Position numbers and translations under genes: made by a program. A stretch of 64,000 nucleotides of DNA from Acidobacteriota bacterium (GTDB lineage Bacteria > Acidobacteriota > Terriglobia > Bryobacterales > Bryobacteraceae): positions 1-64,000 of the forward strand of contig JAFKEE010000043.1 of NCBI GenBank assembly GCA_017307505.1, given 5' to 3'. Of this stretch, positions 1 to 35,553 are shown in pieces (position 1 is the stretch's first letter; every line of letters begins with the position of its first letter). Below the pieces are notes generated by a model. The model saw only the letters and a program-made list of their open reading frames with translations, had not been told where the DNA came from and made no database searches.

Positions 1-1
1 C

Positions 2-1156
2 CAGCCGGCGACCGCCGGGGCCTGCACCTTTCGGGTGCGGGTGACTGACCAGGGCGGGCTGACGGCGGAGCGGGATTTGGAGCTGGATGTCGCGGCCAAC
101 GATTCGCTGACGATCCTGGAGACGAGCCTGCCTGACGGGATGACAGGCAACGACTACCAGGCGCAGTTGACGGGCACCGGGGGCACGCCTCCGCTGCAGT
201 GGTCGATCATCGCCGGGAGCCTGCCGGACGGACTGCAGCTGGATAGCGACACGGGCATCATTGGCGGTATGCCGGTGGCCCCGGGGCAATGGGGTTTCAC
301 CGTTCTCCTGTCGGACAGTTCGACGCCCAGCCTGCAGGTGACGCGGGATCTCTCAATCTCCATTGGGTTCAATTCGCAGCCTCTGCAACTAGTGACCGTC
401 GGACTGCCGGACGGCCATGCCGGTTCAGACTACAGGACCCACCTCCAGGCGAAAGGCGGAACTCCTCCCTACGAGTTTTCCGCCAGCCGCCAGAACGGTT
501 TGACGCTGTCGGCGGCGGGCCTGTTAAGCGGCCGGCCGGCCACACCGGGCGTGTTCGCGATGGGCGTGACTGTGACCGACAGCCGGGGCGCTGCCCCTGC
601 GGTTTCGGCGATGCTCCCCTTGACGGTGCAGGCAGCGGGCGGGCTGCGGCTGGAGACGGCGGACGCCAGCTCCGGAGCGCTGCTGTTGCGCTATGGACAG
701 GCCGGCCTCGGCGCCGGGCAAAGCTGCCGCGTGGACCTGGCCGCGGATGCAAACTTCACACAGCCGCTGGCCGCGGTGACCGACACGGGTGGAGCCGCGG
801 TGCGCTGGGCGGCCTTCGGGCCCGGGCTGAATCTGCAGCCGGATAAGCTGTACTACGCAAAGGCTGACTGCGGAGGCCCGACAGCGACGCTGGCGGCAGC
901 TACACGGCCGGCGGGCCGGGCCAGTTCGGCATCGACAACAGTGAGTGTGCCGGCTCCGGCCGGGACAGACCAACTGCGCGTCGACTACGGCGCCACGGCC
1001 GGGCTGGGCTCTCAGGTAGAGACAGCCTGTACGGCAGGGCGCTGCGCAGCGGCGATCCCGGCCGCTCCAGGCCAGCCGCTGTACTATCAGGCGACTTATC
1101 TGGCCAGCGGGCAGGTGTCGCGGAAAGCCGGCCAGACGGTCGTGCTGGCGCGGTAG
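2..1156 (+). CDS. Ig-domain (He_PIG-like) surface protein, 3' part
   Basis: The reading frame is open to the left edge of the window, so this is the C-terminal part of a longer protein; the first GTG at 35 is internal. At least two repeats carry the pattern S/G-LPDG, a G-GTPP-Y/L core and a turn with GxPxxPG, which is typical of putative Ig (He_PIG) domains. The last ~170 residues contain four Cys and look like a separate Ig/fibronectin-like module. Such domains are found in secreted or outer-surface proteins; no catalytic motif is visible. The signal peptide, if any, lies outside the window. Confidence 0.7.
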   Translation, partial: QPATAGACTFRVRVTDQGGLTAERDLELDVAANDSLTILETSLPDGMTGNDYQAQLTGTGGTPPLQWSIIAGSLPDGLQLDSDTGIIGGMPVAPGQWGFTVLLSDSSTPSLQVTRDLSISIGFNSQPLQLVTVGLPDGHAGSDYRTHLQAKGGTPPYEFSASRQNGLTLSAAGLLSGRPATPGVFAMGVTVTDSRGAAPAVSAMLPLTVQAAGGLRLETADASSGALLLRYGQAGLGAGQSCRVDLAADANFTQPLAAVTDTGGAAVRWAAFGPGLNLQPDKLYYAKADCGGPTATLAAATRPAGRASSASTTVSVPAPAGTDQLRVDYGATAGLGSQVETACTAGRCAAAIPAAPGQPLYYQATYLASGQVSRKAGQTVVLAR

Positions 1157-15178: not shown

Positions 15179-16132
15179 TTACTTCAAACCCGTTGAGAAG
15201 ACAGCGTTTTCCTCGAAGACCGTGGCTTCCTGGATGTAGCGCCGCACCATGACCGTACTGCGGTGTCCGGTCTGGCGCATGATCGAACGCTCGGAGGCGC
15301 CGCCGCGAGCTGCCTCGGTCGCCAGGCCGGATCGCAGACTGTGCGCGCCGTAGGAGTCCGCTTCGCGGCCCGCCCTGCCCATCCAACGCTGGACGATGCG
15401 CGCCACCATACGGTCCGAGAGCCGGTTCTTGCCTGCGCTGCCATCCGGAGCCACGGCCCGGAACACCGCGCCTTCCCCGTAGCCGGAGACGGCGCGCCAC
15501 CGCTCCAGAGCCCGGACGGGGCAGAGCTTCTTCCGGCCGGAGCGCGGGATGCCGAGAATCCGACCGGCGCCTTCCTGATCCGTCTTCGACCGGCGGATTG
15601 TGATCTTCGCCCCTTCCTCGCTGAACTCCAGGTCTTCCCAGTCGAGCCCCACCAGTTCCGACCGGCGGAAGGCGCCCGCAAATCCGGCCAGCAGGAGGGC
15701 CGAGTCGCGCAGGCCGGCGGGTGTATCGGGCATCAGGTCCAGCGCCGATTCCAGGTCGTCGACCAGCAGCGGCCTCTTGGCCTTCGGCCGGATGCCCTTC
15801 GTCCGGCGGATTCCGCGCAGTAGCGTTCGCACCAGCGGGCTGGCGCCGGGACTTTCATAGCCAGCGGCGGCATGGGCGGCCGCCAGAGCGGACAGACGCC
15901 GGCACAGGGTGCCGGTGGAGAAGTGGTCGGCCATCTCCGTCAGATAACGGGCCAGGGTCTCCGGACTGGCGGGCAGCGCTTCCCTGCCCTCGTCCTGGCA
16001 CCAGGTTTCAAAGTGACGCCAATCGGAGCGGTAGGCTTTCTGGGTGTTCCCGGCACGGGCCTGCGCCAGGTAGGCCCAGGCCCTGGCTTCGATACTGGAG
16101 GGGGCTGGCAGCGGATCGAGGTCCCGGGTCAC
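15179..16132 (-). CDS. Tyrosine recombinase (phage integrase/Xer family)
   Basis: A 317-residue recombinase with a SAM-like N-terminal core-binding domain (NTQKAYRSDWRHFETWCQ) and a full catalytic set: R156, K183 in RRSKTD, H264 and R267 in AHSLRSG, H290 in QTGHRS, and the nucleophile Y299 in RRYIQEA. The length suits Xer-like resolvases and integron/transposon recombinases more than phage integrases with an arm-binding domain. A perfect dyad lies 23 bp upstream of its start and looks like a core recombination site. It could resolve plasmid multimers or move the element. Confidence 0.9.
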   Translation of the reverse strand: MTRDLDPLPAPSSIEARAWAYLAQARAGNTQKAYRSDWRHFETWCQDEGREALPASPETLARYLTEMADHFSTGTLCRRLSALAAAHAAAGYESPGASPLVRTLLRGIRRTKGIRPKAKRPLLVDDLESALDLMPDTPAGLRDSALLLAGFAGAFRRSELVGLDWEDLEFSEEGAKITIRRSKTDQEGAGRILGIPRSGRKKLCPVRALERWRAVSGYGEGAVFRAVAPDGSAGKNRLSDRMVARIVQRWMGRAGREADSYGAHSLRSGLATEAARGGASERSIMRQTGHRSTVMVRRYIQEATVFEENAVFSTGLK

Positions 16133-16254: not shown

Positions 16255-16770
16255 ATGCCAGACCAACCCTCATGGATCGAGAGAGTTCCCCAGATTCTCG
16301 ACGCGCTGCGGAGCGCCGGGTGCCCTCCGTTCCTCGACCGCGCCAGCGTGCAGCGGCTCTTCGGGGGCCTCTCCGCCCGGCAGGCAAACCGGCTGATGCA
16401 GAAATGCCACGGCTACCACGTGGGCCGCAGTGTACTGGTCGCCCGGGAGAGCCTGATCGCACTCGCGGAGAGCTGGAAGAAATCCGGCGCTGTCGACCGC
16501 GAGATGGCCCGGAAGGAAAAGCTGCTCTCGACGCTGGCGATCGCCCGGGTCGAGGCACGGAGCCGGGCTCTCCAGATTCCGGTGCAGGCCACCAATTCAT
16601 GGATGCAGTTCGACGACCTGTCGCCGGGGATCCGTTTCGCACCTGGTGAACTGAGGATCGAGTTCTCCGGCTCGATGGACCTGCTGCAGAAGCTCTTTGA
16701 GCTGTCGCAAGCCATCGCCAACGATCAGGTGCGGTTTGAAGCACTGGCCGATACGCCCCGGACATCCTAG
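16255..16770 (+). CDS. Hypothetical protein, possible HTH DNA-binding
   Basis: A 171-residue protein that I do not recognise. I chose the ATG at 16255 because an AGAAGG ribosome site sits about 6 nt before it; the frame extends to 16198. Residues ~20-60 (SVQRLFGGLSARQANRLMQKCHGYHVGRSVLVARESLIAL) look like a helix-turn-helix followed by a wing, as in excisionase-like or phage regulator proteins. The C-terminal half ends in a predicted amphipathic segment. It is divergent from the recombinase and converges on the winged-helix gene, overlapping its end by 4 bp. Confidence 0.55.
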   Translation: MPDQPSWIERVPQILDALRSAGCPPFLDRASVQRLFGGLSARQANRLMQKCHGYHVGRSVLVARESLIALAESWKKSGAVDREMARKEKLLSTLAIARVEARSRALQIPVQATNSWMQFDDLSPGIRFAPGELRIEFSGSMDLLQKLFELSQAIANDQVRFEALADTPRTS

Positions 16771-18527
16771 TTGCCCGCTAACATCCTGCGGGCATAGGCC
16801 TTATCCTCTTCCGGAACGCGTGGGTCGGACAGCCAGGCCTGCCATTCTCCGCGTAGTTGGGCCAGGTCTTCCCTGGCCTGACGGGCTGCGGCCTCTTCCA
16901 TGACCCGTGCCTGGCGCACTTCCTGGCGGAACCGGCGGAAGCTGTCGCCGGCGAAGCACTTCGGAACATAGACAAGAAGGTAGGCCAAGGGATTGGCCAT
17001 CTTCCCCGCCCGGGCCAGGCGTCCCTTCTCATGGATGAAGTGAACGATCTCTTCCGTGGTCGCATCCGGAGCATGGCGCCGGGCGCCAGCGGCGAGCATC
17101 CGTGCTGCCTCACCATCGGCCGAGGCGTACTGGCTGAGTGCCTGCTGCACCGGAGACGTCTCGCCTTCATCACTACCTGGAGCTTTAACCCATGCCAATT
17201 CAGCGGGTTCACTGGACCCTACGGAGGATGTTATTCCTACCGTAGGCTTAACACCCACGGTAGGAGATTGATGTGTTCGTAATCCGGGTGTCTCGCCCAC
17301 AGGCCAGACGAACTCGACGGCCCTGCCCTTCTTGATGACAAAGAGCATGTTCTCCGCCTGCTGCCGTTCCAGGATCTCGTCGTAATTGAAGATGCGGTAA
17401 GTGCGCCCGATGCGAGCCGAACTGTCTTCGTTGGCCAGCACCTCGAGCACCCGCTTGGCCACCAGTTTCGGGATCAACTGCCGGACGCTCTTCTCATCCA
17501 ACCGTACGAGTTTGGCCAGGCGGTCATACCCCATCGAGAACACCTTGGACCGCGGACCGTCCCGGCGCACCCCGTCGGCTTCACGGGCGTGCCAGACGGA
17601 TTGGTAGAAGCGCTCCTCGCCCAGGGTCATGCAGTGCTGGGCGATCTGAACCCTCAAGACCTTGCGGCTTTCGTAGGTGCCGCCGTGAGCATCCACCCAT
17701 TGCGTAACACCCACGGTGGCGGAATGACCCGCCGTGGCGGTTTTTCGCCCGGCAGAACCGGCGGCAGCCGCCGGCGATTTCCACGTAACTACACCACCTA
17801 CGGTAGGCAAATCCCCTTCGGTGGGTAGATCGCCGGTGTCGGCCGGCTCTTCCACGGAGGAGGAAACACCCACGGCAGGTGAATTATTACCTAATTTAGA
17901 ATCAAGCGGTTGAGAACCATTGATATCTTGATGCTCTGATTCACCCACCGTAGGCGTATCGCCTGATTTGTTTCGTTCAGTTAAAACTCCCACGGTGGCA
18001 GTTTGACCCGCGGGGGGCGATACGCCCTCAATGGGGCGCGTCAGAGAGGCCCGTTTCGGTGCCGGAGTATCGCCCACGGTAGGCTGTTGCCCTTCGGTGG
18101 GCGCTATGGGAACGGCCGGAGAATGCACTACGGCAGGAGTTTCGTCGACCGTGGGCGTTACGATTTCCACGGAACTACCCCAGGTAGAACCCATTTGAGG
18201 AGGGGCGGCCTCTCCTTCACCCACTGCAGGCGATACGCCGACCGTGAGCGGAATAGCCTCCGTGGCAGAAACGACCTCCGTGGGCGTTTCCTCAAACTGC
18301 GGAGAAGCCGGCATAGCCAATGCTTTTGCCGGAGGTGGTGTAGGGGCGGGGAAGCGTTCGATCCGGCTCTCGTCCAGGGCCAGACGGCGGGCGGCGCGGT
18401 CCTTGGCGGCGTCGGCCGGTGTGGCCAGCACCTCGGTCAGCCCGCGGAGGGCGGGCCCGGCCGCCAGTTCCTTCCAGTTCAGTGGTTCCGGTTGCCGCTT
18501 AGGCTTTTTCTTGGGTGCTTGTGCCAT
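16767..18527 (-). CDS. ParA-partner winged-helix protein with embedded palindrome array (module 1)
   Basis: A 586-residue protein. It has a basic N-terminus (MAQAPKKKPKRQ) and a long low-complexity region (~80-280) of hexapeptide-like units with core PTVG. A winged-helix domain follows at ~300-390 (SLGEERFYQSVW-like, then DEKSVRQLIPKLVAKRVLEVL and RTYRIF). Further PTVG units lie at ~420-440, and the C-terminus is helical (~480-586). The winged-helix domain aligns by eye with the protein at 23709-24476. The start overlaps the ParA gene by 29 bp. PTVG units are encoded by the palindrome-like CCTACSGTAGG, so the gene may carry its own binding sites. A ParB-like adaptor or replication role is inferred; I know no named family for it. 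Confidence 0.7.
   Translation of the reverse strand: MAQAPKKKPKRQPEPLNWKELAAGPALRGLTEVLATPADAAKDRAARRLALDESRIERFPAPTPPPAKALAMPASPQFEETPTEVVSATEAIPLTVGVSPAVGEGEAAPPQMGSTWGSSVEIVTPTVDETPAVVHSPAVPIAPTEGQQPTVGDTPAPKRASLTRPIEGVSPPAGQTATVGVLTERNKSGDTPTVGESEHQDINGSQPLDSKLGNNSPAVGVSSSVEEPADTGDLPTEGDLPTVGGVVTWKSPAAAAGSAGRKTATAGHSATVGVTQWVDAHGGTYESRKVLRVQIAQHCMTLGEERFYQSVWHAREADGVRRDGPRSKVFSMGYDRLAKLVRLDEKSVRQLIPKLVAKRVLEVLANEDSSARIGRTYRIFNYDEILERQQAENMLFVIKKGRAVEFVWPVGETPGLRTHQSPTVGVKPTVGITSSVGSSEPAELAWVKAPGSDEGETSPVQQALSQYASADGEAARMLAAGARRHAPDATTEEIVHFIHEKGRLARAGKMANPLAYLLVYVPKCFAGDSFRRFRQEVRQARVMEEAAARQAREDLAQLRGEWQAWLSDPRVPEEDKAYARRMLAGN
17779..17795 (+). repeat. RepA-type iteron inside the module 1 gene
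   Basis: TTCCACGTAACTACACC matches the iteron consensus TTCCACGGAACTACACC of the 22.0-22.5 kb array at 16 of 17 positions, although it lies over 4 kb away within a coding region. Confidence 0.65.
18165..18181 (+). repeat. RepA-type iteron inside the module 1 gene
   Basis: TTCCACGGAACTACCCC matches the iteron consensus at 16 of 17 positions. It is the second copy in the ParA-partner gene, 386 bp from the first. Confidence 0.6.
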
Positions 18528-19305
18528 TCGTCACACCAGTCGAGAGGCCATTCAAAAGCATATTGGCGGCGATCTCGTAGTCTTCCAGCGCCTTGGATTT
18601 AGGATCGTAGTCCTGGACAAACTGACGGGCACGAGCCGCCTTGACGACGGCGGTATCGGTGCGGATGTTGGGCAGCAGCGGGACACGCAGCTCGGCTGAC
18701 ATCTCCTGGAGGGCGGTTAGGACGGTCTGGGTCATCTGCAGGCGGTTGTTGACCATGACGGGGAGCAGCCCGATGGAGGCGATCCCTACCTGGCGCTTGA
18801 ACAACCGATTGAGTTCATTCGCCGAACTGATGCTGGCGCTGGCACCCTGGACGCTCAGCGTTTCCATGGCGACGGGAATCAGCACATGTTTCGTATAGAG
18901 CATGGCGCAGGTCTGAAACAGAGTCAGCGACGGCGCCACGTCGATGACGACGGCGTCGTAGGCGCGATCCACGCCGCTGTCGCCAAACACCTGCTCGAAA
19001 TAGAGTTCCCGCAGCGTCTGGCCGCTGATAATATCCTCGGCGGCCTGGGTCTTGCGGTCGCTGCAGAGGACGTCGAGGTTCTCGTGGGCCTTGACGACGC
19101 ACTCGGAGAACAAGACCTGTCGAATCAGATAGTCGTGGAGGGTGAACTCGGGCCTGAGGCCCAGGATGGTCGATACCGAGCCCTGGGAATCTGTATCGAT
19201 GAGTAGCGTCTTCAGATTGCGATCGGCAAAGCACCGGGCCAGGGTGACGGCGCTGGTCGTTTTGGCGACACCACCGCGCTGGTTGCTGACAACAAGTCGA
19301 ATCAT
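18499..19305 (-). CDS. parA: ParA-type ATPase (module 1)
   Basis: A 268-residue P-loop ATPase of the ParA/MinD/Soj type. The deviant Walker A is NQRGGVAKTT (residues 8-17); the signature Lys that normally precedes GG is Arg10, while the P-loop Lys15 is kept. Walker A' is LLIDTDSQGS and Walker B is AVVIDVAPSL. It probably binds DNA non-specifically and segregates a replicon with a centromere-binding partner. It starts by a 4-bp overlap with the small HTH gene and overlaps the winged-helix gene by 29 bp, so all three are coupled. There is no N-terminal HTH, as in short type Ib ParAs. Confidence 0.88.
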   Translation of the reverse strand: MIRLVVSNQRGGVAKTTSAVTLARCFADRNLKTLLIDTDSQGSVSTILGLRPEFTLHDYLIRQVLFSECVVKAHENLDVLCSDRKTQAAEDIISGQTLRELYFEQVFGDSGVDRAYDAVVIDVAPSLTLFQTCAMLYTKHVLIPVAMETLSVQGASASISSANELNRLFKRQVGIASIGLLPVMVNNRLQMTQTVLTALQEMSAELRVPLLPNIRTDTAVVKAARARQFVQDYDPKSKALEDYEIAANMLLNGLSTGVTNGTSTQEKA

Positions 19306-20454: not shown

Positions 20455-21939
20455 TCAGAAGATGCTGCGCTGCGGATTCTGTTTCTGCCACTGCTCGAAG
20501 CCTGGCAGGCTGAGCCCCTCGCGGACCTCGGCGCGGAGCATGGATTCCGCCAGATTGCGGCGGCCGATGCTGGAAAGGCGGCCAAACAGATCGGGTTGCT
20601 CACGCCGGATCTGCTTCAATTTCGCGCCCAACGCCTCTTCCAGCCGCTCGCCGGGGTAGAGTTCTTCCTGTTTGGCGGTCACCTGCTGGTCGCAGTAGCA
20701 GTCATATTCCAGCCGGGCCGTGTAGGAGTCGGCCTCAGGAATTCCTTTGGCGGACGCGCCGGCCGAGGAGTCAAAGTGCTGAGGCAGGCCGATGTTATTC
20801 TCGATGGCCCAGATGTAGAGTCCAGCCGGGTTGTGCCACTTGCCCTTCTGGTCGCTCCGGATGAGGTGGTCTACATACTCCAACTGTTTGAAAACAGGTT
20901 GTGTGTCCGGAATATCCAAGGCCAGTTGCCGGGCTTTGCGTTCGGTCACGCCGCGGGCCACCAGTTCCGGGACCCACTTGGGCAGACTGGCCTCCAGGGC
21001 GGCACGCGCCTCCGGGTTCACGACCGCATGGAAGTTGGGCAGGGAGAGCAGGCGATTGCCAGGCGAGAGCACGAGTTTGAAGTCGCTGCCGCGGGTGGTC
21101 CGGATCAGGTCCCAACTGGACAGGTAGCCGATGTGAACCAGTTCCTCCATGGACGGCTGGAGCACGGCGCGGGCTTTCGACAGGTGCGGATAGGCTCGAA
21201 TGTGGAGCAACTGGCACAGATCCTGGTACTTCTTCTCCACAGGCATGCCCTTGCTGGCGTAGAACCAGATGCTGAGGTGCCCGAACAGGGCTTTGGCGAT
21301 GTCGCGATGCAGCCGCAGGTAGGCGTTGAAGTCGAGAGGTAAGAGGTAGCCCTGGTTGAAATTCGTCAACTGCCAGTGGGAGAGGAAGACCTCGTAGTAA
21401 TCGGAGCGGCGTCCGTCGTTGAGTTCTTCACCGAACAGGACGACACGGTCGAAGACGTGGAAGGTATCGCTGGCGTACTGGCGCCGGTCGGCCAGGAAGA
21501 TCGAGGATTCGGACAGGATGGTGGTGGCCACCATCCGTTTGCACCAGTCGTTGATTTCGTCGTAGTGGAAGCCGCCTTTGCAGAGGCGGAGCAGTTTGAT
21601 GAGGTCGGCGCCGGCGAAGCGGACGGGATTGGCCAGTTGGCCCTGATCGTCGCGCTGGTCGAGCGCGATTTTCATAAAGGCCATGTACTTGTCGCGGTCC
21701 GCCGTAGTGGGGAGACCGAGGCTGGGAATGCCTTCAATGACGGCCTTGGCGTGGATACGCTGTCCGTCGGGCCGTCGAATCACCTGGACAACGGAGCGAG
21801 AGATTTCCTTGTTGGCCGTGGAAGCAAAGAAGCCCACAGAATGCAGGCTTTTCTCGACGCGGACGAGGTCTGCCGGATTTTCTTCGATGACAACAACACC
21901 ATCCAAGGTGCCCTGCTGTCCTGTTTTGTCCTTCGCCAT
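20455..21939 (-). CDS. repA: RepA-type plasmid replication initiator
   Basis: A 494-residue protein resembling the plasmid replication initiator protein A family (RPA). The segment GLPTTADRDKYMAFMKIA and the following winged-helix-like region are typical of that family, as are the downstream FHVFDRVVLFGEELNDGRRSD and HLSIWFYASKGMPVEKKY stretches. A C-terminal extension of ~150 residues is charged. The start (ATG at 21939) lies directly downstream of the iteron array on the same strand, the usual rep arrangement. It should bind the iterons, open the origin and recruit host DnaB. Family assignment is from memory of the motif. Confidence 0.8.
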   Translation of the reverse strand: MAKDKTGQQGTLDGVVVIEENPADLVRVEKSLHSVGFFASTANKEISRSVVQVIRRPDGQRIHAKAVIEGIPSLGLPTTADRDKYMAFMKIALDQRDDQGQLANPVRFAGADLIKLLRLCKGGFHYDEINDWCKRMVATTILSESSIFLADRRQYASDTFHVFDRVVLFGEELNDGRRSDYYEVFLSHWQLTNFNQGYLLPLDFNAYLRLHRDIAKALFGHLSIWFYASKGMPVEKKYQDLCQLLHIRAYPHLSKARAVLQPSMEELVHIGYLSSWDLIRTTRGSDFKLVLSPGNRLLSLPNFHAVVNPEARAALEASLPKWVPELVARGVTERKARQLALDIPDTQPVFKQLEYVDHLIRSDQKGKWHNPAGLYIWAIENNIGLPQHFDSSAGASAKGIPEADSYTARLEYDCYCDQQVTAKQEELYPGERLEEALGAKLKQIRREQPDLFGRLSSIGRRNLAESMLRAEVREGLSLPGFEQWQKQNPQRSIF

Positions 21940-22047
21940 GTACGGTCCACCGGAGCCGATGATTGTTGTAGCTTAGCTCAGATCAATTCTCTGAAGGCTT
22001 TGACATTGTGTACCAGGTTGGTTTTAAACGCTTTAGGACGAACTTGT

Positions 22048-22532
22048 TTCCACGAACCTACACCAAAGCTTCCACAGGCCTTCACCTGTTCTTCCACACA
22101 GCTACACTGCGATTTCCACGAACCCACACGATAGTTCCTCTCAACTACACTGGTTTTCCACGAAACTGCACCGTCTGGAAGGGCTTGGACGGCATTCTGG
22201 ATCGCAGTGTACGAATATTGAGGCCTCAAGATCCTCTCTAGCCGGGGATAAGCCTTATGTGGGGGTAAGGCAAGCTTCTGAGTTTGCCACGCAACTACAC
22301 CACAGGGGACAAATCCTTCCACGGAACTACACCGAAGAGCAGGAACAGACGGCGCCCGGCTTGTGATTTCTTCCACAGAACTACACCGCATTTTGAAGGG
22401 GTTTCTTCGCAAGCCCATCGATGACAACCCCTTGGCGGGATTTTGGCTGGGCTGGAGACCACAGAGGCCCACCCTCCCGGATGAGGTAGTCCCATTTTCA
22501 AAGGTATAGGCAGATTTCCACGGATCTACACC
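22048..22532 (+). repeat. Iteron array, probable replication origin
   Basis: Ten copies of a 17-bp repeat (consensus TTCCACGGAACTACACC) start at 22048, 22070, 22092, 22114, 22135, 22156, 22285, 22317, 22371 and 22516. The first six are 22, 22, 22, 21 and 21 bp apart, about two helical turns, all in the same orientation. They lie just upstream of repA. An apparent ORF across this stretch on the minus strand (21978-22670) is a by-product of the repeats. No clear DnaA box was found. Confidence 0.85.
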
Positions 22533-22535
22533 AGA

Positions 22536-22545
22536 CCCCATGGGG
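22536..22545. repeat. CCCCATGGGG palindrome near the origin
   Basis: A 10-bp perfect palindrome directly after the last iteron. The same core recurs inside the module 2 winged-helix gene (23981-23990, and a shorter form at 23905-23915) and at 24862-24871 (ACCCATGGGT). Confidence 0.55.
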
Positions 22546-22748
22546 GTTGGCTCTTTACCTCTGGGTTCTATGTCAAACCAGAGTGGCCCGGGTGACTTGG
22601 TCTTGCGCATTACGATTGATTGACTAAGGTTACTATCGTATGGGAAGCTGAGCATTGCCGCAGGGGACATTGTCGATTTTGTCCAGGGTTTGCCTAACTA
22701 CTACAATATTAGTGACGAAATTCGGCCGGATGGTGGAAATGGGGCGTT

Positions 22749-22940
22749 ATGGTGAAGAAGCGGCGGGATAGCACGCTGACGACCACCCAGGTAGCTCGGA
22801 TCCTTGGTGTGACTCCGAAGACGCTGTACCGCATGTTGAAGGACGGCCGCATTTCCGAACCTGCACGGAACCCGGATAACAACTACCGCCTGTGGTCGCC
22901 TTACGAGATTCAGAGAATCCAGGAGGAGCTTTCCCGATGA
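22749..22940 (+). CDS. Small HTH (MerR/excisionase-like) regulator, module 2
   Basis: A 63-residue basic protein, TTTQVARILGVTPKTLYRMLKDGRISEPA-RLWSPYEI, with the HTH_17-like pattern and recognition helix in PKTLYRML. Its stop overlaps the parA start by 4 bp (ATGA at 22937-22940), exactly the layout of module 1. It may repress the operon; the spacing upstream (22680-22748) is AT-rich and probably holds the promoter. Confidence 0.8.
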   Translation: MVKKRRDSTLTTTQVARILGVTPKTLYRMLKDGRISEPARNPDNNYRLWSPYEIQRIQEELSR

Positions 22941-23743
22941 TCCGTCTCACGGTCGGCAACCAGCGCGGCGGTGTGGGCAAGACCACAACCGCGCTTACCC
23001 TGGCCCGTCTTTTCGCCGAACGGGGCTTGCGCACGCTGTTGGTGGATGCGGATCCGCAGGGATCCATCGGCAGCATTCTGCGGGTGAAGCCGGAGCTGTA
23101 CCTGAACGACTTCCTGTGGAACAAGCGGCGGCTGTCGGACTGCGTTGTGCAGCCGCTGGAGAACCTGGATGTGCTGTGCAGCAACCGGGACACGCTGGAA
23201 GCGGAGCAGCGGGCGATTGGAACGATTGGCCGGGAGCGGATCTTCGAGAACATCTTCCAACCGGTGGAGGATCACTATGACGCGGTGATCGTCGATATCG
23301 GCCCCTCGCTGAGCCTGATGCAGATCTGTGCCCTGGTCTATACCACCGACTATGTCGTGCCGATCTCGATGGACGCGCTGAGTGTGACGGGCGCGACGGC
23401 GTTCTTCAACACCGCTTATCAACTGGAAGTGCAGCTCAAGAAGAACTGCCGTTGTGTCGGACTGCTGCCCACGATCGTCGACCACCGCTACCAGAACACG
23501 GAGATGGTGATGAAGATGATTGAGCTGATCAGCCAGAACTACAAGGTAGCGGTGCTGCCCAGCATCCGCACCGATTCCACCGTGGCGAAGGCGATCCGGC
23601 TGAGGCAGTTCATCGCCAATGTCGATCCCAAGGCCAAGTGCCTGGAAGACTACAAGGCGGTGGCCGACCAGTTGCTGGCGCTGTACGGGGTGCGGCAGGA
23701 GACAGGCAATGGCAGCGAAGAACAAGCGTCGCAGGTTGCCTGA
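22937..23743 (+). CDS. parA: ParA-type ATPase (module 2)
   Basis: A 268-residue ATPase, the same length as the module 1 protein and clearly its paralog. The deviant Walker A is NQRGGVGKTTTAL; again Arg10 stands where the signature Lys is expected. Walker A' is LLVDADPQGS and Walker B is AVIVDIGPSL. An AGGAGG-type ribosome site lies inside the HTH gene just upstream. The protein probably segregates the replicon together with the winged-helix partner encoded downstream, which it overlaps by 35 bp. Confidence 0.9.
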   Translation: MIRLTVGNQRGGVGKTTTALTLARLFAERGLRTLLVDADPQGSIGSILRVKPELYLNDFLWNKRRLSDCVVQPLENLDVLCSNRDTLEAEQRAIGTIGRERIFENIFQPVEDHYDAVIVDIGPSLSLMQICALVYTTDYVVPISMDALSVTGATAFFNTAYQLEVQLKKNCRCVGLLPTIVDHRYQNTEMVMKMIELISQNYKVAVLPSIRTDSTVAKAIRLRQFIANVDPKAKCLEDYKAVADQLLALYGVRQETGNGSEEQASQVA

Positions 23744-24476
23744 AGAGGACCTGGAAGCTTCTATCCAGGACATCCTGCAAAGCCCGATCACGAAGGTAAA
23801 CCTCTCGTTCCTGAACACGGACTTTGGAGACGGCCCGGCGCCTGGCGCCGTGGTGAACCAACCGGTAGTTCCGTCTTTGCCTGATGGCATGGGGGCTGAG
23901 ATAAACCCCATGGGTGTTGTAGTAAGCCAATCTGGGTTGGAGCCCGGTGTTGCCGCTGGCGAGAGCGGCGTTGGAACAAACCCCATGGGGGGTAGCCCAG
24001 AACCCGTGCTCCCTGGCTCAACCCATCCTGGATCCCAGGAGCAGAAGAAGGACCACACGCTTTGGAGGGCTGAGCATCTGGGCGCCTTCTTCGAAGGGTC
24101 CCGGGTCCGGCCGATCCACCGGGCCGAGGATGCTCTTTCGGTGGCGGAGCAGCGGGTCTATGAGTTTTTGTGGACCACCGGCACCGACGGAGGCGATGCC
24201 TACCGCCTGGTGCACTGCAGCCTGCAGCGGATTTCCAGCCAGTTGAAGCTGAACATCAAAACCGTCCGTGAACTGCTGCCCAGGATGGCCGAGAAGGGAT
24301 TTATTGCCGTCGAGCGGGAGGCGGACGTGCGTCGTAACATCGCCACTCTCTACCGGGTATGGAGCGGAGCGGCGATCCTGGCGGCGCAACAGGGGTTTGA
24401 CCGGCGCTGGGTGGTGAAGACCGGGCGGGGCGTGTTCTACGTGCGCAAGACGACCGTTTCCGTGACGGGCGGCTGA
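23709..24476 (+). CDS. ParA-partner winged-helix protein (module 2)
   Basis: A 255-residue protein starting inside the parA end (ATG at 23709, GGAG about 9 nt before). A basic N-terminus (MAAKNKRRRLPEEDL) leads to a flexible region (~40-118) with two NPMG units. A winged-helix domain follows at ~143-230 (SVAEQRVYEFLW, NIKTVRELLPRMAEKGFIAVER, ATLYRVW). It aligns with the module 1 domain: K-S/T-VR-Q/E-L-I/L-P-K/R-L/M, then T-x-YR. The NPMG units are encoded by CCCCATGGG(G)-type palindromes, the parallel of PTVG in module 1. A centromere-binding adaptor role is inferred. Confidence 0.7.
   Translation: MAAKNKRRRLPEEDLEASIQDILQSPITKVNLSFLNTDFGDGPAPGAVVNQPVVPSLPDGMGAEINPMGVVVSQSGLEPGVAAGESGVGTNPMGGSPEPVLPGSTHPGSQEQKKDHTLWRAEHLGAFFEGSRVRPIHRAEDALSVAEQRVYEFLWTTGTDGGDAYRLVHCSLQRISSQLKLNIKTVRELLPRMAEKGFIAVEREADVRRNIATLYRVWSGAAILAAQQGFDRRWVVKTGRGVFYVRKTTVSVTGG
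23905..23990. repeat. CCATGG-centred palindromes inside the module 2 gene
   Basis: Two copies, ACCCCATGGGT at 23905-23915 and CCCCATGGGG at 23981-23990, each encoding NPMG in frame, 75 bp apart (24 codons plus 3). A weaker relative (GCATGGGGGC) lies at 23888. Confidence 0.5.
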
Positions 24477-24831: not shown

Positions 24832-24861
24832 CATCCAGTAGGCTCCGGGGTTTGTGTCTTG

Positions 24862-24871
24862 ACCCATGGGT
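24862..24871. repeat. ACCCATGGGT palindrome
   Basis: A perfect 10-bp palindrome with the core shared by the copies at 22536, 23905 and 23981. It is outside any gene, near the end of the plasmid-like region. Confidence 0.45.
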
Positions 24872-24927
24872 TTTAGACCAAGACCAGAGGGTTATGGCCA
24901 ATGCGCACCAAGAGGCTACCGCCCATG

Positions 24928-31476: not shown

Positions 31477-32640
31477 CTACTCGATGGCTAGAGTGACCTT
31501 GGCGCTGGTCAGCTTCGTGCCTGACTGCGAGCGCAGATTGAGTTCGACGGGGATATCCAAGCCGGCAGCCGCAGCTTCAGGGACTCGGATTTGAACGAGG
31601 TAGACGCCGGCGGCGTTGGGATCCGGGGTAACGGATTGGATGGCCGCATCGATGCCGCCGATGGAGACGCTGAGGGCGCCCGGGGTATCGGCGTTGAGAC
31701 CAAGGCCGGTGGCGCGAATGGAGATGAGGTCACCGGGCAGAGCGGGTTCACCGAGCTGGCGGGCATCGCGAACGATGGCCAGGCGGTCGGAGTCGGCGAA
31801 GGAGATGAAACCTTCGGGCTGTTCGGCGGCGGGGTTGGAGTCCGGGGCCGGCAGGAGGACGGGATTCGCCTCGAGCATTGTGGTGTGCAGGGAGGCGGAG
31901 TCGCCGCTTTCCGTTTCGACGGTGATGTCGAGCTGGGCACCCGGGTCGGCCGAGGGGCAGAGGAAGGTCAGACTGGTGGAGCTGGCCGAGAGAATCGGGA
32001 CAGCGGAACCATTGATGCGGACGACAGAGCCGGCGAGTTGGAGAGAGGCTCCGGTAGGATCGGAATCGGCTGCTTCGTCGGCGGTGAGCCAGCGGCCTTG
32101 GATGGAGGCCAGGGCGCCGGGGGCGCAGGCGGTGAGTTCGGGCTTGGCGATGAGCGGCAAGCCGGAATCGATCGTGACAGGGACTGAACCGGGGGCGGCC
32201 ACGCCGGCGGAGTTGGAAGCTGCGAACAAGAGGGTGGAGTCGCCGGCCTGGTTGGGTGCGGGGGTCCAGAAGAACTTGCCGGATTCCGCGTCGAAGGAGG
32301 CGCCTTCCGGAAGTTCAGCAGCGGAGACCTCTACGGGGAGACCGGACCCGTCCTGAGCAGCGACAGTGAAGCCGATGGGCGAGCCGAGTTTGACGAACTG
32401 GCGGTCCGGAAGGCTGATCACAGGGGCTGAAGCCGGCGAGATCGAGATCTCGTCGGAGACGAGAGAGTCACCCTCCCCGGCGGAGATCACAACCGAGGAT
32501 TCGGAGGAAGCGGGATCGACAAAACCGCGGAAAGAGAGTGAGCGTTTGCCGGAGCGGACCGAGAGGGTGGTCGGCAGCCGGACGTCGTGACTGGAAGTCG
32601 AGACGGGGATATCGCCCTCGGCAACGTCATTCTTGGGGTC
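31477..32640 (-). repeat. Direct repeat of adhesin C-terminal coding region (copy 2)
   Basis: Counterpart of 24985-26150 (same orientation). By eye identity is high over the He_PIG and C-terminal modules. Confidence 0.6.
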
Positions 32641-35553
32641 ACCCAGCTTCAAGTGGCAGGTGAAGAAGTCTCCGGCCTGAACGGACTTAGGCGCACAGGA
32701 GAGACGGGTATTCTGATCGGGTTCCGTTGTCTTGGGATCAGCGGAAAGAGTGTCGGCCGAGGTTGTCGTGTTAGAGGTGATCAGCCGGGTGCTCTTGCCC
32801 GTGCCAGTAACGGTGACCGGTGTGGCTGTCGTGGAAGCTACGGTATTGAACACCACATCCACGTAGTAGTTGGCTGCTTTCCATGTGCTGTTCGGGAAAG
32901 CGACGCCACCGTACTTGTAGACGTCGTTCCCACCCTCTTCGGTGGTGGAGAGGGCATGGAGCGGGCCGTTGTCTACTCCGTTAGTGGCGAAGTAGTTGAT
33001 GTCAAAGGGGTAGCCGCCCTTTGGAGCCAGGTAGGAAATGATGTAAGTCGTGTTGGCAGAGATGGCCACGGGCTTCGAGAAGTTCGCCTGCTGCCATCCG
33101 GAAGCGGTTTCGCTGGCGAACTTCACCGATGCGAGAATCGTTCCGTTCTTCGTCCAAAGGTGGCCGCTGTGGGTTCCGGTGTTGGTGGACCCCTTGTAGA
33201 AGCGAACGCCGAGGACATAACCCGCTACCTTGCTGCGGAACTTCATGCCCAGTTCCACAGACGCTGTGTCTGTGCTGGTGGGCGTGGTCGGGACGGTGGA
33301 AGAGGTCCAAACCGAGCAGGGGCAGGTGACGACTGAGCCCGCGGTCAGAGTAATGGACGCGGTTTTGGACACGCCATTCGCCGTTGCGGTGATGACGACT
33401 GTCGAGGAAGCGGTCACCGTTCCTGCCGTGGCCGTAAATGTGGCCGATGTGGCGGAGGCCGCGGCAGTGACAGAGGCCGGCACCACGAGGACAGTGTTGT
33501 TGTCCGAGAGAGTCACGACAAGACCCGAAGACGGGGCTGCGCCGCTCAACTGGACCGTGCAGGTGGTTTTGGCACCGGAAGCCAATGAGGTGGGCGAGCA
33601 GGTGAGGGAGCTCACCGTGATTGTCGACAGCGGTCCAAGCGTCAGGGTGGCTGTCTGGGAGCCTCCGTTCAGCGTTGCGGTAAGGACGGCCGACTGGCTG
33701 CTGGAGACTGTGCCCGCTTTCGCCGTGAATGTCGCAGTGGAGGCGCCCGCGGCTACTGTGACCGAAGTGGGGGCGGTCAGGAGAGTGGAGTTACTGGCGA
33801 TCGTCACGGCCTGACCGCCGGTTGGAGCAGCGGCGGACAGGGTAACCGTACAAGTGGAAGAGCTACCCGAAGTCAGGCTGGTCGGATTGCAGGAGAGGCT
33901 GCTGACTACTGTCGCGGACGCGATGGTGACGGAAGCTGTCTTGGAGGTTCCGTTGGTCGTCGCGGTCACAGTGACGGCCGTTGTGGCTGTGACTGCAAAG
34001 GCGGCCACGGTAGTGCTCGACGTTGCGGAGAAGGTTGCCGTGGAAGATCCAGCGGGTACAGTGACGCTGCTCGGAACCATAAGGGCAGTGCTGTTGTCGG
34101 CGATGGCCACCACTTGACCAGCGGAGGGAGCCGCGGTGGTCAGGGTCACTGTACAGGTGGCAGTGGCGCCGACGGCGATGGTTGAGGGGCTGCAGGAGAG
34201 ACTGCTGAGCACCGTCAACGGAGTCACTGTGACGGGCGCGGACATCGAAGACCCGTTCGCGGTGGCCGTGACGGTGACGGAGGTGCTGACGGTCACCGCG
34301 GCGGCAGTGGCCGTAAAGGAAGCAGAGCTGGCGCCGGCCGCTACTGTTACGGACACGGGCACCGTCAGGGCTGCATTGTTGTCCGAGATAGCGACGGGCA
34401 GGCCACCTGTCGGGGCGGCACCGGAAAGAGTCACTGTACACGCGGAAGTGCCACCGGAACTAACGGAAGAAGGTGTGCACAAGAGGCTGCTGATCACCGC
34501 GAGCGGAGTCACTGTGACGGATGCCGTCCGGGAGGACGCGTTTGAGGTGGCGGTGACAGTGACGGTCGTGCTGGACGTGACGGAAGTGGCGGTAGCCGTA
34601 AAGAGGACGGAGGTAGAGCCCGCTGCGACGGTCACGGAGGAGGGCACAGTGAGAGCCGCACTATTGTCTGTGACGGTCACCACCTGGCCACCGGCCGGGG
34701 CGGCGCTGGAGAGGGTCACCGTGCACGAGGAAGTGCCACCGGCACTGATCGAGGAAGGTGAACACAGCAGGGTGCTGATGATGGGCAGAGGATTCACCGT
34801 GACGGATGCCGTCCTGGAGGATCCGTTTACCGTAGCGGTGACAGTGACCGCTGTGCTGGCCGTCACGGAAGCGGCCGTTGCCGAGAATGAAGCGGAGGTG
34901 GAACCGGCTGCGACGGTTACGGACGAGGGTACGGTGAGAGCTGAACTGTTGTCGGAGATGGCCACGGCCAGGCCACCGGTGGGGGCAGCACTGGAAAGAG
35001 TCACAGTGCACGAGGACGCGCCGCCGGAGGTGACTGACGTGGGCGTGCAAGTCAGCAGGCTCGGGGTTGGGGCAATCACTGGGGAGGATACGGAGATCGC
35101 CCCAATATTGACATTAAGGGGTATTAAACTCCCAGATGAAGACGCGGCGAGGCCAGTCATCTGTAGCGAAGGGGTGGATGAGGCCGTGGAGGAGACTGAG
35201 AACGTCGCTGTAGCTACGACGGAGTCGCTCAGTGTGTTCGTGTTCATGCCCGAGAGCAGACACGTGGTGGAACCGGTGGTGTTGTTGCAAGTCAAAGACT
35301 TACCTGAGGCGACAGTGGCGGAACTTGCGGACACACCGACCAAAGTAAAGTCCGTTGTGGGGTATGACAGCGTCCATTGCAACGCTGCCGGTTGAATCCC
35401 TCCCGACAGGGTGAGATCGATTGATACGCTCCCGCCACGAGTGGCAGATACAGAAGCCGAGCTGAGCACCCCAGTCTGGGCGATTGAAGCTGTTGGCAGC
35501 AGGAGGAGGTAAGGAAGCAAACCGAACAAGCGTCGCGAAAAAGAACAAATCAT
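31477..35553 (-). CDS. Giant secreted adhesin with ~6 Cys-paired Ig-like repeats
   Basis: A 1358-residue protein built like its neighbour at 24985-30498 but with fewer repeats: a signal peptide (LLPYLLLLPTASIAQ), a cohesin-like domain (AGK/SGKSL, TTCLLSGMN), six Ig-like repeats each with a Cys pair, a DUF4082-like module (CPCSVWTSS), He_PIG-like Ig domains and a Solibacter-type C-terminal module (ALPGDLISIRATGLG). The C-terminal ~380 residues are very similar to those of the other adhesin. The start ATG at 35553 is just downstream of an AGTACT-type motif. Confidence 0.8.
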   Translation of the reverse strand: MICSFSRRLFGLLPYLLLLPTASIAQTGVLSSASVSATRGGSVSIDLTLSGGIQPAALQWTLSYPTTDFTLVGVSASSATVASGKSLTCNNTTGSTTCLLSGMNTNTLSDSVVATATFSVSSTASSTPSLQMTGLAASSSGSLIPLNVNIGAISVSSPVIAPTPSLLTCTPTSVTSGGASSCTVTLSSAAPTGGLAVAISDNSSALTVPSSVTVAAGSTSASFSATAASVTASTAVTVTATVNGSSRTASVTVNPLPIISTLLCSPSSISAGGTSSCTVTLSSAAPAGGQVVTVTDNSAALTVPSSVTVAAGSTSVLFTATATSVTSSTTVTVTATSNASSRTASVTVTPLAVISSLLCTPSSVSSGGTSACTVTLSGAAPTGGLPVAISDNNAALTVPVSVTVAAGASSASFTATAAAVTVSTSVTVTATANGSSMSAPVTVTPLTVLSSLSCSPSTIAVGATATCTVTLTTAAPSAGQVVAIADNSTALMVPSSVTVPAGSSTATFSATSSTTVAAFAVTATTAVTVTATTNGTSKTASVTIASATVVSSLSCNPTSLTSGSSSTCTVTLSAAAPTGGQAVTIASNSTLLTAPTSVTVAAGASTATFTAKAGTVSSSQSAVLTATLNGGSQTATLTLGPLSTITVSSLTCSPTSLASGAKTTCTVQLSGAAPSSGLVVTLSDNNTVLVVPASVTAAASATSATFTATAGTVTASSTVVITATANGVSKTASITLTAGSVVTCPCSVWTSSTVPTTPTSTDTASVELGMKFRSKVAGYVLGVRFYKGSTNTGTHSGHLWTKNGTILASVKFASETASGWQQANFSKPVAISANTTYIISYLAPKGGYPFDINYFATNGVDNGPLHALSTTEEGGNDVYKYGGVAFPNSTWKAANYYVDVVFNTVASTTATPVTVTGTGKSTRLITSNTTTSADTLSADPKTTEPDQNTRLSCAPKSVQAGDFFTCHLKLGDPKNDVAEGDIPVSTSSHDVRLPTTLSVRSGKRSLSFRGFVDPASSESSVVISAGEGDSLVSDEISISPASAPVISLPDRQFVKLGSPIGFTVAAQDGSGLPVEVSAAELPEGASFDAESGKFFWTPAPNQAGDSTLLFAASNSAGVAAPGSVPVTIDSGLPLIAKPELTACAPGALASIQGRWLTADEAADSDPTGASLQLAGSVVRINGSAVPILSASSTSLTFLCPSADPGAQLDITVETESGDSASLHTTMLEANPVLLPAPDSNPAAEQPEGFISFADSDRLAIVRDARQLGEPALPGDLISIRATGLGLNADTPGALSVSIGGIDAAIQSVTPDPNAAGVYLVQIRVPEAAAAGLDIPVELNLRSQSGTKLTSAKVTLAIE

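Follow-up and report, generated by a model that had tools for sequence, protein, structure and literature searches.

The analysed window, a stretch of 64,000 nucleotides, forms part of contig C31, which belongs to the 9.4-Mb draft genome of an Acidobacteriota bacterium. Since the first 149 bases of this contig (window positions 1-149) are identical to its last 149 bases, situated at the end of locus L067, C31 most likely represents a circular plasmid, 116,529 bp in length. Its maintenance genes are clustered at about 16.2-24.5 kb, where rep, coding for a replication initiator, is flanked by two ParA-partner systems, parA1-B1 and parA2-B2 (Table 1). The parA1 gene overlaps the start of B1. The proteins B1 and B2 have in common a winged helix-turn-helix (wHTH) domain, with 28% identity; B2 is devoid of the C-terminal domain of B1 and carries NPMG repeats. 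The presence of two partition systems on one plasmid is described as common (PMC13245405).

Table 1. Coordinates of the genes, domains and repeated sites of the plasmid maintenance region (window positions; a slash joins units 18 bp apart)
Feature	Position	Strand	Remarks
B1, ParA partner	16767..18527	-	586 aa; no Pfam or PHROG family
Winged helix-turn-helix of B1	17292..17705	-	residues 275-412; recognition helix RLDEKSVRQLIPKL
In-phase CCYACSGTRGG-type palindromes of B1	17218..18284		18 units with at most 2 mismatches; mostly 18-bp spacing
Units 17218/17236/17254	17218..17264		17236 perfect; codons of disordered linker 2
Units 17710/17728, 17797/17815 and 17869	17710..17879		17797 perfect; linker 1
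Units 17944 and 17989/18007/18025	17944..18035		18025 with 3 mismatches; linker 1
Pairs 18073/18091 and 18127/18145	18073..18155		linker 1
Four-unit run 18220/18238/18256/18274	18220..18284		linker 1
Rep-type iteron TTTCCACGTAACTACACCA in B1	17778..17796	+	codon offset 2
Rep-type iteron TTTCCACGGAACTACCCCA in B1	18164..18182	+	codon offset 0, different frame
parA1, ParA-type ATPase	18499..19305	-	PF13614, E=9e-32; phrog_164, ParA-like
rep, plasmid replication initiator	20455..21939	-	PF10134, E=1.6e-8
Iteron cluster, probable oriV	22047..22533	+	seven TTTCCACGGAACTACACCA-type copies; motif scan
Non-coding ACCCATGGGT-type pair upstream of parA2	22532..22570		21 bp apart; second copy weak
parA2	22937..23743	+	PF13614, E=3e-36; phrog_164
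B2, second ParA partner	23709..24476	+	wHTH family of B1
Two ACCCATGGGT-type palindromes in B2 coding sequence	23902..23994		at 23902 and 23977; motif scan
ACCCATGGGT palindrome downstream of B2	24858..24875		motif scan

The B1 protein is composed of a basic N-terminus (MAQAPKKKPKR), a repeat-rich linker 1, the wHTH, a disordered linker 2 and a helical C-terminal domain. No Pfam or PHROG family matched B1, and the same searches did not reveal a ParB/Srx CTPase domain; the fold of the core is that of a wHTH with a helical domain. In the structural model, the winged helix has MarR/TFE-like matches, unlike the HTH reported for ParT (PMC12260392). The linker 2 segment of about residues 420-452 is disordered in AlphaFold, and the second part of the array described below is situated inside it. 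A basic N-terminus is usual in the ParA-contacting peptides of ParB and ParT (PMC12260392); a contact of the B1 N-terminus with ParA1 can be inferred, in the absence of binding data.

The B1 gene carries a dense array of short palindromes. With at most two mismatches, the CCYACSGTRGG pattern was observed at 20 sites (mean of 2.3 and maximum of 8 in 300 codon-order shuffles) and, with at most one mismatch, at 10 sites (mean of 0.2 and maximum of 2 in shuffles), while a weight-matrix (PWM) scan retained 16 sites. One codon phase is common to 18 of the 20 sites, and all 18 are located within 17218-18284, in agreement with the original prediction of about 18 CCTACSGTAGG-like palindromes in this gene. 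The predicted pairs and runs at 18 bp were also recovered, including the four-unit run, one member of which (18256) has three mismatches, as has the unit 18025; so were the two perfect palindromes, CCTACCGTAGG at 17236 and CCTACGGTAGG at 17797. The array is split over the two linkers, with the majority of units before the winged helix and three after it; the winged-helix codons themselves contain a single match at no more than two mismatches (17498), and this match is off-phase.

This pattern is highly concentrated in B1. Indeed, the 9.4-Mb genome contains only 14 exact copies of CCYACSGTRGG, five of them in B1, and the extended site is essentially limited to this gene within the 116.5-kb plasmid. 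Short in-frame palindromes within a variable region could also be mobile or selfish elements, similar to REP or Rickettsia palindromes, which had invaded a tolerant linker. Such a scenario is hardly tenable given the confinement to essentially one gene of the plasmid, the lack of dispersed copies elsewhere in the genome in the exact-pattern scan, and the fixed spacing of palindromes that are system-specific and track the recognition helix, as described below.

The codons of the PTVG peptide (CCN ACN GTN GG) are near-palindromic whatever the codon choice, so palindromy alone is no proof in B1. Compared with synonymous shuffles, the palindromy of B1 gave p = 0.02-0.56, varying by statistic; in B1 alone, the palindromy above what PTVG forces is weak. 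Since this test was too weak to decide, we relied on third bases and on comparisons across homologues. In six PTVG-type genes, all Pro codons of the units end in C or T (46/46, versus 97/194 for Pro codons elsewhere; p=2e-12), and the Val codons of the units mostly end in A or G (45/49, versus 79/185 for Val codons elsewhere; p=1e-10); for the central Thr base of the units, the constraint was not significant in these genes. The third bases of Pro and Val are constrained exactly at the positions which the palindrome requires. It had initially been considered that the PTVG peptide could equally be the selected feature, the palindrome being a by-product of its codons, and both the near-palindromic nature of these codons and the modest result of the B1 shuffles are compatible with this. 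Nevertheless, this explanation fails and is left with almost no credibility: the third bases are not free, which already contradicts a by-product, homologues retain palindromes while their peptides change completely, and copies occur in non-coding DNA. Judging from these lines of evidence, selection almost certainly acts on the DNA and not on the PTVG peptide.

A family-wide search revealed relatives in 26 of 237 genomes, the close ones being from Acidobacteria and Bryobacterales metagenome assemblies, one of which is labelled Acidimicrobiia. No relatives were found among PLSDB plasmids, phages and IMG/VR; a contig search with B1 alone gave no match and, with the PTVG group, returned the known loci again. 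The linker repeats differ among homologues (for example PTVG, PMG, DTES, STVD, RDTV, LPDS, GAP and IERS), and so do the arrays: L038 carries GATACTGANTCAGTATC, L039 TGTCNACNGTNGACA, L043 CTACCNGGTAG, L047 AGGTGCACCT and L065 AGGTATACCT, with ACCCATGGGT present in both L057 and L059. In each of these loci with non-PTVG linkers, palindromy is significant with the peptide fixed, as it is in the PTVG-type L034 and L045. Among 11 homologues fetched after the test had been defined, five were significant with the peptide fixed, each at the floor of p=0.0033. Two of these five are L081 and L082, in which the palindrome ATTGAACGTTCAAT, coding for IERS, is present in 10 and 12 copies, respectively. A clear array was not seen in L036, L053, L054, L058, L060, L062, L078 and L103.

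Among the partner-type genes, 16/29 reached a codon-shuffle z of at least 3 versus 14/232 other ORFs of the same loci (Mann-Whitney p=7e-11), and one of the high-scoring control ORFs is the antisense of a partner gene. Elsewhere in the window, an ORF of 1358 aa (31477-35553) has internal repeats whose resemblance to CGGTCACNGTGACCG lies in the codon content and not in the choice between synonymous codons; this gene constitutes a negative control, scoring high in codon shuffles and not in synonymous ones. In genomes with more than one system, the palindromes differ, as in the two systems of the window, in L039 and L043 of genome G026 and in L042 and L055 of genome G218. The array phenomenon is real and more general than the B1 gene.

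The arrays are closely associated with parA. In nearly all cases uncut by a contig end, the wHTH partner gene is located directly downstream of parA or overlaps it; relatives with only the C-terminal domain are without ParA and have no convincing array. The density of sites is 6.0/kb in partner genes, 0.06/kb in parA, 1.0/kb upstream of parA and 1.25/kb downstream of the partner. The weight matrices were built mainly from partner-gene sites, so the first value is partly circular, the other three being less affected. The palindromes were also looked for outside coding DNA in relatives, as had been proposed, and were found beside parA, often at the same spacing. Indeed, non-coding pairs keep their system's own spacing in L059 (15 bp), L061 (18 bp) and L055 (21 bp), and the 18-bp spacing of the non-coding sites in L035 is that of its PTVG group. 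The spacing of the pair upstream of parA2 is also the in-gene spacing in the relative L057.

The sites upstream of parA in L035, L052, L059 and L061 raise the possibility that the palindromes serve solely as operators through which parA-B1 regulates itself, and that the centromere is located in another place. This is unlikely, since such sites were not found upstream of parA in the B1 system and in L034, at least 10 sites lie deep in the downstream gene, which would be an odd operator layout, and the surroundings of the B1 and parA1 genes showed no alternative array that might belong to B1.

The recognition helix of the partner varies together with the palindrome: DEKSVRQLI pairs with CCCACNGTGGG, NIKTVRELI with ACCCATGGGT, and ARKTIQRI with TG(T/A)C(T/C)ACNGT. 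With curated motifs, the helix and motif distances gave a Mantel r of 0.71. Because this curated set had been built from group-wise seeds, a possible source of inflation of r, the analysis was repeated with de novo motifs in 21 systems, giving r=0.45 (p=0.0002) and, once the rest of the domain was removed in a partial Mantel test, 0.41 (p=0.0002). In the reciprocal partial test with de novo motifs, in which the helix was controlled for, the remainder of the domain did not correlate with the motif. L045 and L059 are illustrative: the rest of their domain is distant from the PTVG and PMG groups, yet they share the motifs of those groups, which are among the nearest to them by helix. In a reduced set of 12 distant systems, sharing less than 45% identity, significance was lost (r=0.17, p=0.10); moderately related groups are therefore the main source of the signal. 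From the ParA linkage, the wHTH-palindrome correlation and the array form, and without binding data, we infer that the palindromes are very likely bound by the wHTH of the partner.

Collectively, these observations lead us to propose, with a probability of roughly three in four, a type-I-like partition system in which the codons for the disordered linkers of B1 house the centromere array, binding and segregation being inferred. B1 would be the DNA-binding partner of ParA1 in type-I-like plasmid partition, its wHTH binding the CCYACSGTRGG palindromes as a dimer. The B1 gene would hold the target sites where it encodes the two linkers flanking the wHTH, and these sites would jointly form the partition centromere of the plasmid. 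ParA1 would then act on the B1 nucleoprotein complex assembled on the array, and the array would probably also serve to check parA-B1 expression. Because nearly any residue is tolerated in the linkers, the DNA array would dictate their sequence, PTVG in B1 and PMG, DTES, STVD, IERS and others in relatives; no part of B1 is better able than these disordered linkers to accept a sequence imposed by codons. A change in helix specificity would lead to a change of the palindrome and, in turn, of the linker peptide. Neither binding nor segregation data are available, so that B1 binding, dimerisation, centromere function and autoregulation remain inferences. Whether the array is a centromere, an operator or both is likewise deduced from the ParA linkage, the wHTH-palindrome correlation and the array form; a centromere is probably its main role.

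The main rival to this proposal is a replication origin, since the winged helix weakly matches phage initiator profiles. B1 could be a lambda-O-like initiator that opens the plasmid at iterons lying midway within the B1 gene, and the in-gene sites would be the origin. Some family members weakly match the PHROG 'replication initiation' and 'O-like' profiles and Pfam DnaD_N, the replication-initiator match of B2 falls in its wHTH, and Foldseek retrieved lambda-O and DnaD-type phage proteins as loose matches with low TM-scores. An AT-rich signature is present in B1 (33% GC over 60 nt), but it is not consistent in the linkers of homologues; furthermore, linkage to ParA hardly varies, in contrast to linkage to rep. 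The main arguments against the origin are that Rep is encoded separately on the plasmid, with an iteron cluster belonging to it, and that partners of the B2 type carry sites without a C-terminal domain. An origin role thus appears improbable, though it is not excluded.

Rep-type iterons are also found within B1. With at most four mismatches, TTTCCACGGAACTACACCA has nine copies on the plasmid, namely the seven of the cluster at 22047-22533 and two in B1 (17778 and 18164), both with one mismatch. The latter lie in distinct reading frames, giving GGVVTWK and WGSSVEI, which rules out peptide selection as their explanation. In L046 and L059, the same iterons are located upstream of related rep genes. 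These copies point to a binding of Rep to the B1 gene as well, for instance in copy-number control or handcuffing, although binding data are lacking. It is an even question whether these systems constitute a separate Acidobacteriota partition class, with a centromere in linker codons, a private palindrome tracking the helix and B1 iterons tying replication to partition.

The organization described here has both common and distinct features with known systems. As in canonical ParABS systems, a ParA-type ATPase gene (PF13614 and phrog_164 for parA1 and parA2) is next to the partner gene in nearly the whole family and palindromic sites resembling parS, by sequence form only, are close to the par genes; unlike in ParABS, the partner has no ParB/Srx CTPase domain. 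Type-I RHH systems differ in that their partner is an RHH protein and B1 has a winged helix; to our knowledge, the arrays of these and of type II/III systems are classically outside the linker codons of the partner. Lambda O is a wHTH protein, and we know of no family of it where palindrome and linker peptide change together. With type-I RHH and type II/III systems, the likeness would be static binding to a centromeric repeat array (PMC13245405). RepC of repABC plasmids similarly acts as a DNA-binding plasmid protein on sites in its own gene, oriV being inside repC, and partition and replication genes are together; however, RepC is a replication initiator, and parS forms an element of its own within the operon (PMC2783167). 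In lambda, the origin inside the initiator gene O is also an array of short binding sites in mid-gene, but with four 19-bp iterons, a replication role and no ParA (PMC3985674). Another parallel in layout is the Streptomyces plasmid SCP2: parA lies immediately upstream, the partner, ParT, is non-canonical in lacking a CTPase domain and has a basic N-terminal peptide, and its coding sequence contains an inverted-repeat parS (PMC12260392). For B1, the parallels with lambda and SCP2 concern candidate sites recognized by their sequence alone. SCP2 has one 18-bp parS, whereas the B1 gene has about 18 sites over two linker-coding regions, and ParT, with a ParB-type HTH, slides from parS, whereas B1 has a winged helix (PMC12260392). 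As far as could be seen, B1 and ParT belong to different protein families.

Sites inside partner or initiator genes are already known; linker-encoded arrays with a peptide changing along with the palindrome appear to be new, and a literature search limited to open-licence papers found no description of the B1 family or of a linker-embedded array with palindrome-specific peptides. If the systems do form a separate class, the linker sequence would be an alias of the DNA target of the protein. The arrays represent a clear natural case of dual coding, the protein residues appearing to be set by a DNA recognition array. The joint change of palindrome, peptide and helix in some 20 systems provides a data set for reading DNA specificity from protein sequence in both directions. 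It also leads to a testable explanation for the splitting of plasmid incompatibility groups, two systems with different palindromes being present on the plasmid of the window, and would put a partition family in a phylum with little known on plasmid maintenance.

Several other loci deserve mention. L078, L103 and L080 are on chromosome-sized contigs (2.4, 5.6 and 0.5 Mb), and their ParA-partner loci have weak or no arrays, unlike many such loci on smaller contigs; these are perhaps integrated or decaying elements. In L057, a ACCCATGGGT pair with 21-bp spacing (15926-15960) is situated about 7 kb from the partner gene and is possibly a second centromere or an origin site. The proteins of L048, L049 and L050 combine a cysteine-rich N-terminus with a B1-type C-terminal domain, without ParA, and are probably replication proteins of other elements.
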